In this document: positions 1-23,640 of the stretch, in pieces
Position numbering within the stretch: the first letter of the stretch is position 1
Layout: each line of letters opens with the position of its first letter
Assembly: GCA_026392155.1 (NCBI GenBank)
Contig: JAPLCP010000056.1
Coordinates: 1 to 50,462 of the forward strand
Direction of reading: 5' to 3'
Origin: Armatimonadota bacterium
GTDB taxonomy: Bacteria; Armatimonadota; Armatimonadia; Armatimonadales; Armatimonadaceae
DNA length: 50,462 nucleotides
Translations under genes and position numbers: made by a program
Notes under the pieces: model-generated
What the model saw: only the letters and a program-made list of their open reading frames with translations
The model's database searches: none
What the model was told of the DNA's origin: nothing

Positions 1-511
1 CGATCTGGCTGCAGATCAGGCGGCTATCGCCGCTGCTGCGGACTCGATTGACCGAATCGCTGCCAGCACTCGCTTCAACGGCAAGCTGCTGCTCGATGGT
101 TCCTACACCGCTCAGACCCTGCAGATCGGTGAGGAGTCCTCAGACACCATCACGGTTGACATTGCAGATCTGACTGCGGTCGGTCTTGGTGTTGACTCGG
201 GCACTCTGGACGTGACGGTTGCCGGTGGTGGTACAGATGCAATTGATGCCATTGACCTTGCCATCACGGCTGTCTCGACGGAGCGTGCTAAGCTGGGTGC
301 CACCCAGAAGTACACGCTTGAGACGACGGTTAACTCGCTGTCTGTTTCCGAGGAGAACATCCGATCTTCCGAGTCTGCGATTCGTGATGCGGATATGTCC
401 AAGGAGATGGTTGAGTTCACCCGCAACAACATCATGATGCAGGCAGGAACGTCTATGCTGGCTCAGGCCAACCAGTCGTCCCAGTCTGTACTCTCGATCC
501 TGCGTGGTTAG
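1..511 (+). CDS. Flagellin, C-terminal part (5' end outside window)
   Basis: The reading frame is open from base 2 to a TAG at 509-511 and encodes the C-terminal two-thirds of a flagellin. It ends in the conserved D1/D0 helices (SEENIRSSESAIRDADMS, then NNIMMQAGTSMLAQAN). It is a close paralogue of the complete flagellin immediately downstream. Two blocks are identical at DNA level (1-85 with 1023-1107, and 344-483 with 1366-1505), with divergence concentrated between them. The product is the extracellular filament subunit, exported by the flagellar type III system. The central region is short, so no large D2/D3 outer domain is present. A hairpin terminator follows directly. The start and promoter lie outside the window. 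Confidence 0.95.
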   Translation, partial: DLAADQAAIAAAADSIDRIAASTRFNGKLLLDGSYTAQTLQIGEESSDTITVDIADLTAVGLGVDSGTLDVTVAGGGTDAIDAIDLAITAVSTERAKLGATQKYTLETTVNSLSVSEENIRSSESAIRDADMSKEMVEFTRNNIMMQAGTSMLAQANQSSQSVLSILRG

Positions 512-699: not shown

Positions 700-1533
700 A
701 TGGGTATGGTTGTAAACTTTAACGCGGCTGCTCTCAATGCACAGCGTAACTTGGGCATGACGAGCAAGGGACTGAATCAGTCCATTCAGCGTTTATCGAG
801 CGGACTTCAAGTCAATAGTGCCGCCGACTCGCCCGCTGGTCTGGTGATCTCGCAGCAGATGCGCTCCAAGGCCGATGGCATGAGCCAGGCTATCAAGAAC
901 AGCAACGACGGCGTCAATCTGATCAAAACTGCGGAAGGCGCTCTGAACGAGGTGCATAGCCTCCTTCGCCAGATGCGCACTCTCTCGGTTCACGCAGCCA
1001 ACGAAGGTATTAATAGCGCCAACGATCTGGCTGCAGATCAGGCGGCTATCGCCGCTGCTGCGGACTCGATTGACCGAATCGCTGCCAGCACTCGCTTCAA
1101 CGGCAAGGTGCTGCTTGATGGTTCCTACACCGCTCAGATCCTTCAGATCGGTGAGGAGTCCACGGACACCCTCACGGTTAACATTGCGGATCTGACTGCG
1201 GTCGGTCTTGGTGTTGACTCGGGCACTCTGGACGTGACGGTTGCAGGTGGTGGTGCAACGGCAATTGACCTCATTGATACCGCGATTCAGACTATCTCAA
1301 CCGCGCGTGCTGAGCTGGGTGCCACCCAGAGGTACACGCTTGAGGCGACCCTGAACTCGCTGTCCGTTTCCGAGGAGAACATCCGATCTTCCGAGTCTGC
1401 GATTCGTGATGCGGATATGTCCAAGGAGATGGTTGAGTTCACCCGCAACAACATCATGATGCAGGCAGGAACGTCTATGCTGGCTCAGGCCAACCAGTCG
1501 TCCCAATCCGTACTCTCCCTCTTGAAGGGCTAG
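700..1533 (+). CDS. Flagellin (complete)
   Basis: This 277-residue flagellin has both terminal coiled-coil regions: N-terminal D0/D1 (NFNAAALNAQRNLGM, RLSSGLQVNSAADSPAGL) and C-terminal D1/D0 (SSESAIRDADMSKEM, MMQAGTSMLAQANQ). The middle is only about 60 residues of variable sequence, so the filament would be a minimal smooth type. The ATG at 700 follows GGAGGA at 686-691. It is the second of two tandem flagellins and is likely controlled by sigma-28 transcription and CsrA/FliW translation control. No flagellin-specific chaperone (fliS) or cap (fliD) gene is nearby. Confidence 0.97.
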   Translation: MGMVVNFNAAALNAQRNLGMTSKGLNQSIQRLSSGLQVNSAADSPAGLVISQQMRSKADGMSQAIKNSNDGVNLIKTAEGALNEVHSLLRQMRTLSVHAANEGINSANDLAADQAAIAAAADSIDRIAASTRFNGKVLLDGSYTAQILQIGEESTDTLTVNIADLTAVGLGVDSGTLDVTVAGGGATAIDLIDTAIQTISTARAELGATQRYTLEATLNSLSVSEENIRSSESAIRDADMSKEMVEFTRNNIMMQAGTSMLAQANQSSQSVLSLLKG

Positions 1534-19427: not shown

Positions 19428-20152
19428 ACAGCCCTCTCTTCTCTTAATGTCCGTGCGAGGCGGTGCATGGCCCCCTCAGTGGTTGCATCTACCACTCCCT
19501 GACGGCTCTCCACGCGGCACCCTCCACGGCGGAGAGTGGGATCTGGTGTGAGCTGGACATGGTCTGTGCTACGTGTCGTCAATGTCTCTAGCTGGAGCAG
19601 CGGTAAATCCTCAGGGTGAACGGCGACCGTGAGCTCATGGCCATGGGGCACATGGGAGATGGCAGCGCGAACAATGGCAGCAACACGCTCCGGCTCCAGT
19701 GTGAGCTGCTCATGTAAGATAGACTCAGCTGCTTTGATACAAATCTCGGTCATGGTGGGGACTTGCTTGTGGCAGAACTGGTTCCAGGCAGCGGGTAGCT
19801 CGGTGAGAAGGGCTTGTAGGGGCTCTAGCTGTGACTGACACTCGCTCTGAAGCTGTGCGCGGCCTTCGTTGAGACCCGCCTCCATTCCTTCGGCATGTGC
19901 CTTGGCGAGCACGCGCTCTGCCTCCAGCTCCAGCTCGCGCAGGGCGGACTCGCGTAGCTGCTGAACGGCAAGCCGCGCATCGGCGAGTAGCGACTCTGCC
20001 TCGCGCACGGCCTCCTGGTAGAGCGCCGCGGTGTCCGGCTTGGCAGTCGAGGCAGGGGGCTCGGGGCGTACTGCCGCGATCTCCCAGGTGCGAACCTCGT
20101 TGCCGATGCGGCGCGCGGAGCGGATCACATAGGGCTGGGCTAGCTCAGGCAA
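19424..20152 (-). CDS. fliH: FliH, export ATPase regulator
   Basis: This 242-residue protein has a long coiled coil rich in Ala, Glu and Arg (about residues 45-120, including the GMEAGLNEG region) and a C-terminal V-ATPase E-subunit-like domain. It binds FliI and FliN. The start appears to be a TTG at 20152, preceded by GAGGAAG and overlapping the fliG stop by 8 nt; I see no better ATG. Confidence 0.88.
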   Translation of the reverse strand: MPELAQPYVIRSARRIGNEVRTWEIAAVRPEPPASTAKPDTAALYQEAVREAESLLADARLAVQQLRESALRELELEAERVLAKAHAEGMEAGLNEGRAQLQSECQSQLEPLQALLTELPAAWNQFCHKQVPTMTEICIKAAESILHEQLTLEPERVAAIVRAAISHVPHGHELTVAVHPEDLPLLQLETLTTRSTDHVQLTPDPTLRRGGCRVESRQGVVDATTEGAMHRLARTLREERAV

Positions 20153-21179
20153 GCGCTTCTTCCTCAGTTTCTTGATTGGCCGTGGCCAGTGTCACTTCTC
20201 CCTTGTCGGCAAGCGACTTTGCCAGGTTGACCATTTTTTGCTGTGCAGCTTCGATATCGCGCAGACGAACGCTGCCCAGGTTCTCGACCTCTTCTCGAAT
20301 ACGCTCGGCAGCGCGCTCGGACATGTTGCCATAGATCAGCTCGATCTGGTCCTCGGGAAGCCCCTTGATCACCAGAGGGAGGGTGTTGGTATCCAGATCA
20401 CGAAGGATGCGCTGGAGGACACGGTCCTCTTGCTCCATCAGGTTCTCGAACGTAAACCGGTAGCGCTGAACCTCGCGGGCTAGGTCGGGCGCCTCTTCTT
20501 CCAGTGATGTCAGAAAGAGGGTCTCCACTGAGCGGCGCATGCGGCTGAGGATATCGGCGACATGGCGGGGGCCGGCAGGGCTCTCTTTGGTGTCTATGAT
20601 CCCCGTCTGGAGCTTGGCTGCGAGGGCGTGCTCTAGGTGCCTCAGCGCACGGGGTGAGGGAGTCTCTAGCTGGACAAGGCGCGTGGTGACGCTGGTCTGC
20701 ACCTCAGTGGGGAGCGCCGTGAGCATCGCTGCTGCCTTGTCGAGAGGGAGCTGGCTCACTAAAACGGCGATCATCTGCGGGTGTTCTTCACTCACGAGCG
20801 AAGCGAGGGTCTCGGGGAGGGTCTCTTTGACAATGCGCTCCAGAGTGAGTGGAGGCGTTTCAGACTCCCGCTCATTGATCAGGATCGTGTTGGCGCGCTC
20901 TGAGCCGATGGTCTCCAGGATCTGGCGCGTGTACTCGGGCGTGGTGTGCAGGCCATTGACATAGTGGCGTAGGTCTTCCTCAGATTCCTCCAGGACGCGA
21001 TCCCGCTCTTTGCCCGCCACGTGGCCCAGGTGGGACATGGTCTGGATCATGAGCTCCATCTCGGCCTCACTGAGGCAGCTTAAGATGCTGGCAGCCAGCT
21101 CCGCACCCACGGAGTGCAGGAGGATAGCCCCCTTGTAGAGAGGATCGTTCGTATTAAATCGCGGGCGAAGTTCATCCAT
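20145..21179 (-). CDS. fliG: FliG, motor switch and torque protein
   Basis: This 344-residue protein has the N-terminal FliF-binding domain (YKGAILLHSVGAELAASILS), the middle domain with EHPQMIAVLVSQLPLDKAAAM (EHPQ motif) and the C-terminal torque domain with charged residues (LPLVIKGLPEDQIELIYGNMS, then ERAAERIREEVENLG). It couples stator movement to the C-ring. A short gap separates it from fliF. Confidence 0.97.
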   Translation of the reverse strand: MDELRPRFNTNDPLYKGAILLHSVGAELAASILSCLSEAEMELMIQTMSHLGHVAGKERDRVLEESEEDLRHYVNGLHTTPEYTRQILETIGSERANTILINERESETPPLTLERIVKETLPETLASLVSEEHPQMIAVLVSQLPLDKAAAMLTALPTEVQTSVTTRLVQLETPSPRALRHLEHALAAKLQTGIIDTKESPAGPRHVADILSRMRRSVETLFLTSLEEEAPDLAREVQRYRFTFENLMEQEDRVLQRILRDLDTNTLPLVIKGLPEDQIELIYGNMSERAAERIREEVENLGSVRLRDIEAAQQKMVNLAKSLADKGEVTLATANQETEEEALA

Positions 21180-21230: not shown

Positions 21231-22871
21231 TTAGGGCCGGCTGATGGGCTTCTCGCGAAGCCAGTCCTGGAGCATGGCTGCGACATCCTCGGGCTGGTTG
21301 GTAGCGATTCGGCGGATGCGGCCAAGGGGCGTTGCGAGCTCATCTTCATCAAGAGGAATCTCCCCTAGCTCACCGGGCTCTCTCTCAATCGGTTGACCCT
21401 CTCCGTTCAGGCCGGCAGGGGCTCCTGCGATTCCACGGGCATTTTTTCTGCCGCCAGGAAGCGCAGGGTTGCCTTTATCCCCCAGGGTCGCATCCAGCTT
21501 TTGTTTCTTGGGGCGGCGGGGGCGCATCATGATCAGCGTAAAGATCGCCACGAGAACTAGGGCCGCCAGGGCCGCTCCATTTCGGATGAGCGCCATCTGT
21601 GTCTCTTGCTTGGTTGCCGCAAGAGAGTCCGCCTTCGCTTTTTCTTCATCGGCGCGGTTGAAAGGAAGCACGGTTAGAGAGATCTGATCGCCGCGTCCTC
21701 CTGCCGTGGTCGGGTTCAGATCCAGACCCGCTGCGGCTGCGAGCGTATTGCGTAGCTCCGTTTGCTTGATGGGGGCAATATTGGCTGCTTCATCCAACAA
21801 GATAGCCACAGAGAGGTGCTTAATCTTGCCCTGTGCCATGGTGCGCTTTTCGTTGGTTTTATCAACCGCATAGGTATTGGTACTATTGATGCGATTGTAG
21901 TCCCCGACCTGACCTTTATTGTTATCCACCAGGTTTGTCATGGTTCCTGGAGCCGTCGGGGCATCTTTTTCCTGCTTGGTGTAGACCTCGCTGCTCTTGG
22001 TCTCGTTGGTGGGCAGGTTGCCCCCATTGGGGCCGCTGGGCTTGTAGATCTCGCGGACAAGCTGGCTCTGATCCCAGTCCAGCTCGGTTCGCACTGTGAT
22101 CTCCGCGCGATTGGGGCCAAGTGCACGGTCAGCAAGGCGCTGAAGATCGTCGGTAAGGCGACGGTCGTAGCGCTCCTGCATGTCTATCTGGTCTCTGCCA
22201 ATATTCTCGCCTTCACCCGCACTGTTAAGGCTATTGCCTCTAGAGTCTAAGACCGTGACTTTCTCCGGAGTGAGACGCTCCACAGACGAGGCGACGAGGT
22301 GTGCGATACCTGTAACCTGCTTCGCACTGAGCTGATAGCCCTCTTGCATGTGGATAGTCACAGAGGCTTTGACATCTTCTGCTGTCTCTGAGAAGACAGG
22401 CTTGTCGGGCATTGCGATCTGCACGCTGGCATCGTCAACGCCTTCCAGGCTCTTTATCGTGCGATTGAGCTCACCCTCTGTTGCCCGCCGCTTGTTAATC
22501 TTTTGAACGGCATCGGTCATGCCAAAGTTGGTCTTATCAAAAAGCTCATTGCCAAGGTCTCCGTGTTGCTTAGGGAGATCCTGGGCAGCAAGATCTAAGC
22601 GTACCTCAGTAACCTGATCCGCAGGGACATAGATCGTCTCACCCTTACGACCCGATTCCAACTTGAAGCTTATATTGCGCTCTTGTAGCTTGGTCTTGAT
22701 GGCACTGGCATCTGACATAGAGAGCTTTGAGTAGAGCAATCCATAGTTAGGGCGACTGGATGTGACCGCAAGGGCGAGTATCCCGCCAAAGACCGCGATC
22801 AGAATAGCGCCAAGCCCGGCCTTTTGCAGGTTCGAGAGTGCGCTCCAGTTATTTTTCAGAGAGTTAAGCAT
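21231..22871 (-). CDS. fliF: FliF, MS-ring protein
   Basis: This 546-residue protein has a first transmembrane helix at about residues 18-38, ring-building motifs RBM1 and RBM2, a larger RBM3 region (about 210-430), a second transmembrane helix (ALIRNGAALAALVLVAIFTLI) and a C-terminal FliG-binding tail (QPEDVAAMLQDWL). It forms the MS ring that houses the export gate. The first 215 codons and the leader are part of a tandem duplication with the gene upstream. Its 5' untranslated region contains a remnant of the fliE 3' end, as expected if it is the second copy. Confidence 0.97.
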   Translation of the reverse strand: MLNSLKNNWSALSNLQKAGLGAILIAVFGGILALAVTSSRPNYGLLYSKLSMSDASAIKTKLQERNISFKLESGRKGETIYVPADQVTEVRLDLAAQDLPKQHGDLGNELFDKTNFGMTDAVQKINKRRATEGELNRTIKSLEGVDDASVQIAMPDKPVFSETAEDVKASVTIHMQEGYQLSAKQVTGIAHLVASSVERLTPEKVTVLDSRGNSLNSAGEGENIGRDQIDMQERYDRRLTDDLQRLADRALGPNRAEITVRTELDWDQSQLVREIYKPSGPNGGNLPTNETKSSEVYTKQEKDAPTAPGTMTNLVDNNKGQVGDYNRINSTNTYAVDKTNEKRTMAQGKIKHLSVAILLDEAANIAPIKQTELRNTLAAAAGLDLNPTTAGGRGDQISLTVLPFNRADEEKAKADSLAATKQETQMALIRNGAALAALVLVAIFTLIMMRPRRPKKQKLDATLGDKGNPALPGGRKNARGIAGAPAGLNGEGQPIEREPGELGEIPLDEDELATPLGRIRRIATNQPEDVAAMLQDWLREKPISRP

Positions 22872-23640
22872 GGTAAATAAGAGAGTTCTAGAGAAAGACT
22901 AAAATGAATAAGCTAAAGAGAGATCTTTGCGTGGAGTGTTAAGAATATTGCCTCTAGAGTCGAGGATGATAACTTTTTTGGGAGTGAGACGCTCCACAGA
23001 TGAGGCGACGAGGTATCTGATGCCTATAACTTGCTTCGCATTGAGCTTATAGCCTTTTTGCATGTGTATCATGACGGAGGCTTTGGCATCTTCTGCGGGC
23101 TTCGAGTCGATAGGCTTAACGGGCATTGCGATCTGCACGCTGGCATCGTCAACGCCTTCCAGGCACTTTATCGTACGGCTGAGCTTGCCTTCCGTTGCTC
23201 GCTGCTTGTTAATCTTTTGAACGGCCTCGGTCATGCAACAGTTAGTTTTGTCGAAAATCTCGTCTCCAACATCTGCGTGTTGCTTAGGGAGATCCAGCCC
23301 TGCAAGATCTAAGCGTATCTCAGTAACCTGATTCGCCGGGATCTCGATGGTCTCACCCTTGTGATCCGAAATCAGCCGAAAGCGGATATTGCGCTCTTGT
23401 AGCTTGGCCTTGATGGCACTGGCATCTTGCATAGAGAGCTTTGAGTAGAGCACTCCGTAGGTAGGATTGCTAGACGTAACCGCAAGGGTGAGTATCCCGA
23501 CATAGAACGCGGCCAGAGTCGCGCCAAGAACGGCCTTGTGTAGGTTTGAGAGCGAGCTAAAGTTATTTTTCAGAGAGTTAAGCATCGTCGTAGGAGAGTT
23601 CTAGCGAAAGATTAAAATGAATAAACTTAAAGAGGGATCT
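22223..23640. repeat. 704-bp tandem duplication of the fliE end to fliF 5' region
   Basis: Copy B covers 22223-22926 (5' part of fliF, its leader and a relic of the fliE 3' end). Copy A covers 22937-23640 (truncated fliF, leader and the real fliE 3' end). The offset is 714 nt, with single-base indels in the leader. Shared leader sequence (GAGAGTTCTAG, then AAAATGAATAA) and GATCT at both right edges fix the boundaries. The junction is the 10-nt stretch 22927-22936. Confidence 0.9.
22899..23585 (-). CDS. Truncated FliF paralogue (TM1, RBM1 and RBM2 only)
   Basis: This 228-residue ORF aligns without gaps to FliF residues 1 to about 215, with roughly three-quarters identity by eye. It ends in an unrelated tail (TPRKDLSLAYSF) derived from duplicated fliE 3' sequence read out of frame. 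It lacks RBM3, the second membrane helix and the FliG-binding tail, so it cannot replace FliF. The frame has stayed open despite more than 50 amino-acid differences, with several acidic residues changed to lysine (four E to K) and a Cys-Cys pair replacing Phe-Gly. It may be a decaying copy, or a retained membrane protein that mixes with or limits MS-ring assembly. Confidence 0.8.
   Translation of the reverse strand: MLNSLKNNFSSLSNLHKAVLGATLAAFYVGILTLAVTSSNPTYGVLYSKLSMQDASAIKAKLQERNIRFRLISDHKGETIEIPANQVTEIRLDLAGLDLPKQHADVGDEIFDKTNCCMTEAVQKINKQRATEGKLSRTIKCLEGVDDASVQIAMPVKPIDSKPAEDAKASVMIHMQKGYKLNAKQVIGIRYLVASSVERLTPKKVIILDSRGNILNTPRKDLSLAYSF

Follow-up and report, generated by a model that had tools for sequence, protein, structure and literature searches.

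An open, truncated fliF copy ahead of full-length fliF in a flagellar operon of an Armatimonadota bacterium

The MS ring of the Salmonella flagellum is built from 34 FliF subunits, with only 23 RBM1-RBM2 units in the inner ring, and how one FliF protein forms both rings is under study (PMC8092281, PMC8270960, PMC8786727). A Salmonella fragment comprising RBM1 and RBM2 is strictly monomeric, which its authors attribute to a block of RBM2 by RBM1, and the addition of RBM3 lifts this block and favors oligomers (PMC8786727). The i-loop of FliF is required for the assembly of FlhA (PMC8092281), and a split of an SctJ-like protein from the remaining parts of a FliF-like protein has been discussed in the context of injectisome evolution (PMC4768692). 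Here we describe an operon in which a truncated fliF reading frame stands between fliE and full-length fliF; in the literature on FliF paralogues or duplicated fliF genes we found no case with this layout.

The duplicated unit and its truncated reading frame

The window (the whole 50,462-nt stretch of DNA that was analysed) is one entire contig of a draft genome of 4.77 Mb in 228 contigs. It carries a large flagellar gene cluster that includes flagellin at the left edge, flhF/flhG-like genes, flhA, flhB, fliR, fliQ, fliP, fliO and fliN, a FliM/N-type gene, fliL, flgE, flgD, fliK, fliJ, fliI, fliH, fliG, fliF and fliE, and flgC, motA, motB, two rod-type genes, flgA and flgH. Given this gene content, it is very likely that the organism makes a flagellum, and the full-length fliF is likely to be functional. 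Read along the minus strand, the genes run fliE, truncated fliF (228 aa), fliF (546 aa) and fliG (Table 1), and no terminator- or promoter-like site was found on that strand in the stretch from fliE to fliF. We note also that two flagellin-type genes lie in tandem at window positions 1-510 and 700-1533 (plus strand), with 90% identity across a compared stretch of 300 nt; the contig starts within the first of these, and the contig break probably fell at the flagellin repeat.

Table 1. Features of the fliE-fliF-fliG region, in window coordinates
Feature	Coordinates	Strand	Basis
fliE, gene immediately 5' of the truncated copy; the duplicated unit begins with its last ~5 codons	23627..24211	-	PF02049 E=1.5e-21; TIGR00205
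704-bp unit, proximal copy (fliE tail, leader, fliF codons 1 to ~217)	22937..23640	-	blastn self-comparison
Truncated fliF paralogue, 228 aa: TM1, RBM1, RBM2; TAG stop	22899..23585	-	PF01514, TIGR00206
704-bp unit, distal copy; vestigial fliE tail and leader before full-length fliF	22223..22926	-	blastn self-comparison
27-nt spacer, TAG of truncated gene to ATG of fliF; both frames in phase, no further stop	22872..22898	-	frame reading
Full-length fliF, 546 aa	21231..22871	-	PF01514 + PF08345
fliG, then fliH, fliI, fliJ downstream; operon otherwise normal	20145..21179	-	gene content

Comparison of the window with itself by blastn aligns the two copies of the unit at 82.4% identity over 705 columns, with 122 mismatches, two gap openings and E = 0, and their ungapped start-to-start offset is 714. 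The unit runs from the last codons of fliE through the leader to about codon 217 of fliF. This bears out the preliminary description of a 704-bp unit present twice, 714 nt apart, and supports its attribution of the short gene to tandem duplication and truncation. Because 714 is divisible by three, the frames of the copy and of fliF are in phase. The sole indel between the two copies sits in the leader, and the aligned coding part contains neither a stop nor an indel, so that the upstream copy is free of internal stops and frameshifts, as had been reported; the remaining two forward frames of the copy contain 8 and 14 stops. Over codons 1-215 of the copy and fliF, 54 of the 215 (25%) differ in amino acid, in agreement with the earlier estimate of divergence, while 35 differ silently and 126 are identical; counting from the start codon, the two share nearly all of their first 25 nt. 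The final ten or so residues of the truncated gene are encoded by the junction and by the second, vestigial fliE tail and leader, and the TAG that closes the frame lies in this copied leader about 25 nt beyond the junction; the product ends in DLSLAYSF. This TAG and nine sense codons (22872-22901, minus strand) are all that separate the copy from the FliF ATG, and readthrough would yield a tandem FliF fusion of 784 codons, although nothing suggests that such readthrough actually occurs.

The truncated product matches PF01514 (YscJ_FliF) with 176 bits over residues 39-216 and has no Pfam domain beyond, so that the break falls at the end of RBM2. PF08345 (YscJ_FliF_C, corresponding to RBM3) is present in full FliF and absent here, as are the second TM helix and the C-terminal FliG-binding tail, the frame stopping at residue 228; the earlier assignment of the upstream copy as TM1, RBM1 and RBM2 only is therefore upheld. 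Both copies have the same predicted elements, with the last RBM2 strand at residues 205-208. The AlphaFold models were built on three sequences and have a mean pLDDT of 64-66, and they therefore support the order of the elements only. Foldseek hits included RBM2 chains from the MS rings of Salmonella, with TMt reaching 0.95, and the SctJ proteins EscJ and PrgK, and the truncated product is predicted to have the two-RBM periplasmic architecture seen in SctJ.

Tests for selection on the upstream copy

A codon model comparing the copy with fliF over 215 codons, the check proposed in the preliminary description, gives an intermediate pairwise dN/dS of 0.37 (dN 0.152, dS 0.409); a value of 1 is rejected (LR 19.4), and one of 0.5 is not (LR 1.86). 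As a neutral copy and a well constrained parent would together average about 0.5, the test is ambiguous: the ratio is below 1, but it is also compatible with neutrality of the copy beside constraint on the parent. It averages two lineages, and we have not relied on it alone. Alignment of both copies with 51 other FliF proteins as an outgroup allows the branches to be measured separately; that of the copy is 0.195 and that of fliF 0.089, such that the copy has evolved about twice as fast. With dS shared equally between the two, which is an assumption made for adjacent genes over the same elapsed time, the omega of the copy is about 0.53 (bootstrap 0.32-0.89), with P = 0.017 for a value of 1 or more, and that of fliF is 0.20 (0.05-0.40). 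The copy thus lies below the omega of 1 expected of a pseudogene, and no stop or frameshift inactivates codons 1-215 as read from its own start, although the gene is truncated relative to FliF.

The distribution of the changes is more telling than their number. In the most conserved fifth of sites there are amino acid differences at only 2 of 43, compared with 14.7 expected if the copy were neutral (P < 0.001 by simulation); this test charges the changes of both lineages to the copy, and the sparing persists with P of about 0.01 even when the neutral distance is halved. Fourfold sites in these codons have diverged much as they have elsewhere, with 8 of 30 differing in the most conserved fifth, and 13 of 48 in the two most conserved fifths versus 9 of 37 in the remainder, and recent gene conversion is therefore not supported as the source of the spared sites. 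A single 45-nt identical run between the copies (P = 0.012 under uniform scatter) leaves some room for local conversion.

Two other features carry less weight. At half the observed dS, full neutrality predicts 2.4-3.0 stops, and zero stops has a simulated P of 0.04-0.09; a neutral copy is stop-free in 4-9% of simulations, and we have dropped the open frame as strong evidence of selection, while noting that the lack of coding indels adds something to this weak argument. The preliminary description had also pointed to a shift of charge towards lysine. The shift is present, with a net charge of +7 in the copy versus 0 in the same region of fliF, but random change of equal amount produces at least +7 in 17-23% of simulations, and we reject it as a sign of selection (P 0.17-0.23). 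The gain of lysine alone has a nominal P of 0.007-0.023, having been picked post hoc, and it tracks an excess of G-to-A differences.

Consensus residues have been lost from the copy at ten sites (W9F, Q16H, R40N, V82I, G104A, F116C, G117C, E134K, F160D and T206I), compared with four sites in fliF. The first of these, W9, is 98% conserved, and E134 and F160 belong to RBM2. With the losses falling mostly in the copy and not in fliF, constraint on the copy appears to be relaxed, and these losses argue that it is without the full set of FliF RBM2 roles. The altered i-loop (F160D, E162K and T163P) suggests that a role at the export gate has been lost from the copy, and we note that the enrichment of i-loop changes (6 of 14 sites) is not significant (P = 0.11).

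Selection on the partial protein, as proposed in the preliminary description, is thus moderately supported, by the lineage-split omega and the sparing of conserved sites and not by the open frame or the charge shift. The pattern of substitutions indicates that for much of its history the copy was probably translated and constrained to keep its fold, and the constraint could stem from a period when it was longer. We lean towards the view that it is a translated and selected protein.

Distribution, candidate roles and rival explanations

Among the matches listed from 291 genomes of the phylum, 179 of which have a FliF match, there is no second case of a truncated copy beside fliF. Within the same family, FliF matches are missing from ten of the 11 other genomes, among them the one congener. 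The closest FliF proteins to that of the window are 34-44% identical among the matches listed, and a scan of genome contigs for relatives gave as its sole match a FliF that is 28% identical. Absence of the copy from close relatives had been put forward as a mark of a neutral pseudogene; searches of the order and of the phylum gave no second case among the matches listed, but the relatives are too distant for this to be decisive. As far as can be seen, the duplication event appears to be lineage-specific. One other genome of the phylum has two FliF matches, and these are complementary halves on two contigs that we read as one cut gene. The window's FliF is 34-36% identical to those of other families of the phylum (up to 44% for the N-terminal part) and 28-32% identical to those of its own order; this proximity to other families, together with the scarcity of FliF in its own, raises the possibility that the flagellar cluster came in by transfer, or was retained where others lost it. 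In the tree, the FliF on a contig titled Alphaproteobacteria REEB149 groups among those of the phylum, reflecting either a misassigned record title or gene transfer.

We tentatively favor the reading that the copy is a partial paralogue specific to this lineage, on which purifying selection persists in relaxed form, and that it may be a monomeric accessory in M-ring assembly. A single partial tandem duplication in the fliE-fliF operon would have copied the end of fliE, the fliF leader and start region, and the first ~217 codons; the upstream copy would have retained its start and acquired a stop within the copied fliE tail and leader, and its product would be a membrane-anchored RBM1-RBM2 protein without RBM3, TM2 or the FliG-binding tail. 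It is presumably translated with fliE and fliF, would insert via TM1, and may stay mainly monomeric through masking of RBM2 by RBM1, which has been shown for the Salmonella fragment only. Alongside the RBM3-bearing FliF, the copy may enter the RBM2 ring or slow its formation, and M-ring assembly could be tuned in this way. In light of the monomeric Salmonella fragment and the effect of RBM3 on it, the likeliest active role, if there is one, would be that of a mostly monomeric, membrane-anchored FliF relative that touches full FliF during ring formation and might enter the inner ring, take up outer positions or slow assembly; the earlier proposal of a modifier or inhibitor of MS-ring assembly is consistent with the behavior of that fragment (PMC8786727). 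By this analogy an M-ring role is conceivable, and we consider it doubtful. We think it unlikely that the copy is a second M-ring subunit beside full FliF, for example filling RBM2-ring positions without RBM3, or restraining ring formation. If true, this would be a present-day parallel to the split between SctJ-like protein and remainder in injectisome evolution (PMC4768692), and a natural RBM1-RBM2-only subunit would test whether different proteins can supply the two rings, as they do in injectisomes.

The main rival, which we regard as possible if short of probable, is that the frame is a passenger with no function of its own, in which any stop or frameshift is removed since it would break translational coupling and have polar effects on fliF and the genes downstream. 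A second reason would be damage to the ring from a misfolded membrane fragment resembling FliF, and the changed RBM2 and i-loop residues would render the copy harmless. This account fits where the copy lies and how its evolution has relaxed nearly as well as an active role does: within a single operon, the copy separates fliE from fliF with no promoter or terminator between, the spacer to fliF is short, and the copy evolves faster and has lost conserved RBM2 and i-loop residues. However, a frame kept open for polarity alone should take missense changes neutrally, yet changes at conserved sites are strongly depleted and omega falls short of 1; a constraint to do no harm could produce some of this sparing. 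Even as a passenger only, the copy would be a clear example of a frame kept open within an operon.

An older history, in which two whole fliF genes diverged in tandem under selection and a later deletion took the 3' part of the first, would explain why the protein evolved under constraint while silent divergence is high (dS 0.41), and why conserved residues were nevertheless lost. We nonetheless find it improbable, in that the repeat ends at the boundary expected from a single partial duplication, nothing of later fliF or of fliG is seen in the spacer, and two events are required and not one. A neutral pseudogene that has yet to catch a stop is less probable again: it would be stop-free by chance at the simulated frequency given above for the silent divergence seen, and a pairwise ratio of 0.5 is not rejected, but the lineage-specific omega, the sparing of the conserved fifth at either neutral distance and the absence of coding indels all speak against it. 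An assembly artefact or strain chimera, which the fragmented draft and the start of the contig inside a flagellin repeat might invite, is very improbable, as the copies differ by 18% and the junction has no long word in common with either parent site, giving an assembler no evident reason to join there.

Comparison with described FliF and SctJ proteins

In common with FliF (TIGR00206, PF01514 + PF08345), the copy has TM1, RBM1 and RBM2; it is 75% identical to the neighboring FliF and exceeds the TIGR00206 cut-off (156.7 versus 129.75 bits), but it spans only positions 10-222 of the 555 in that model and is without RBM3, TM2 and the FliG-binding tail. It resembles SctJ (YscJ/EscJ/PrgK), the injectisome inner ring lipoprotein, in its periplasmic RBM1-RBM2 content, and both Foldseek and TIGR02544 make this match; however, it falls under the TIGR02544 cut-off (74.2 versus 161.95 bits), it has no lipobox cysteine near the N-terminus and no cysteine at all in residues 1-115, and it is located in a flagellar operon. 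The chlamydial FliF-FliG fusion (Bergeron 2016, PMC4768692) is likewise a FliF shortened in nature, but there it is the sole FliF, matches SctJ over RBM2 only and is joined to a part of FliG, whereas here a full FliF stands beside the short one. The laboratory fragment FliF50-229 of Salmonella (PMC8786727) has a near-identical domain cut and is monomeric in solution, although it is engineered and has neither TM1 nor the substitutions of the copy.
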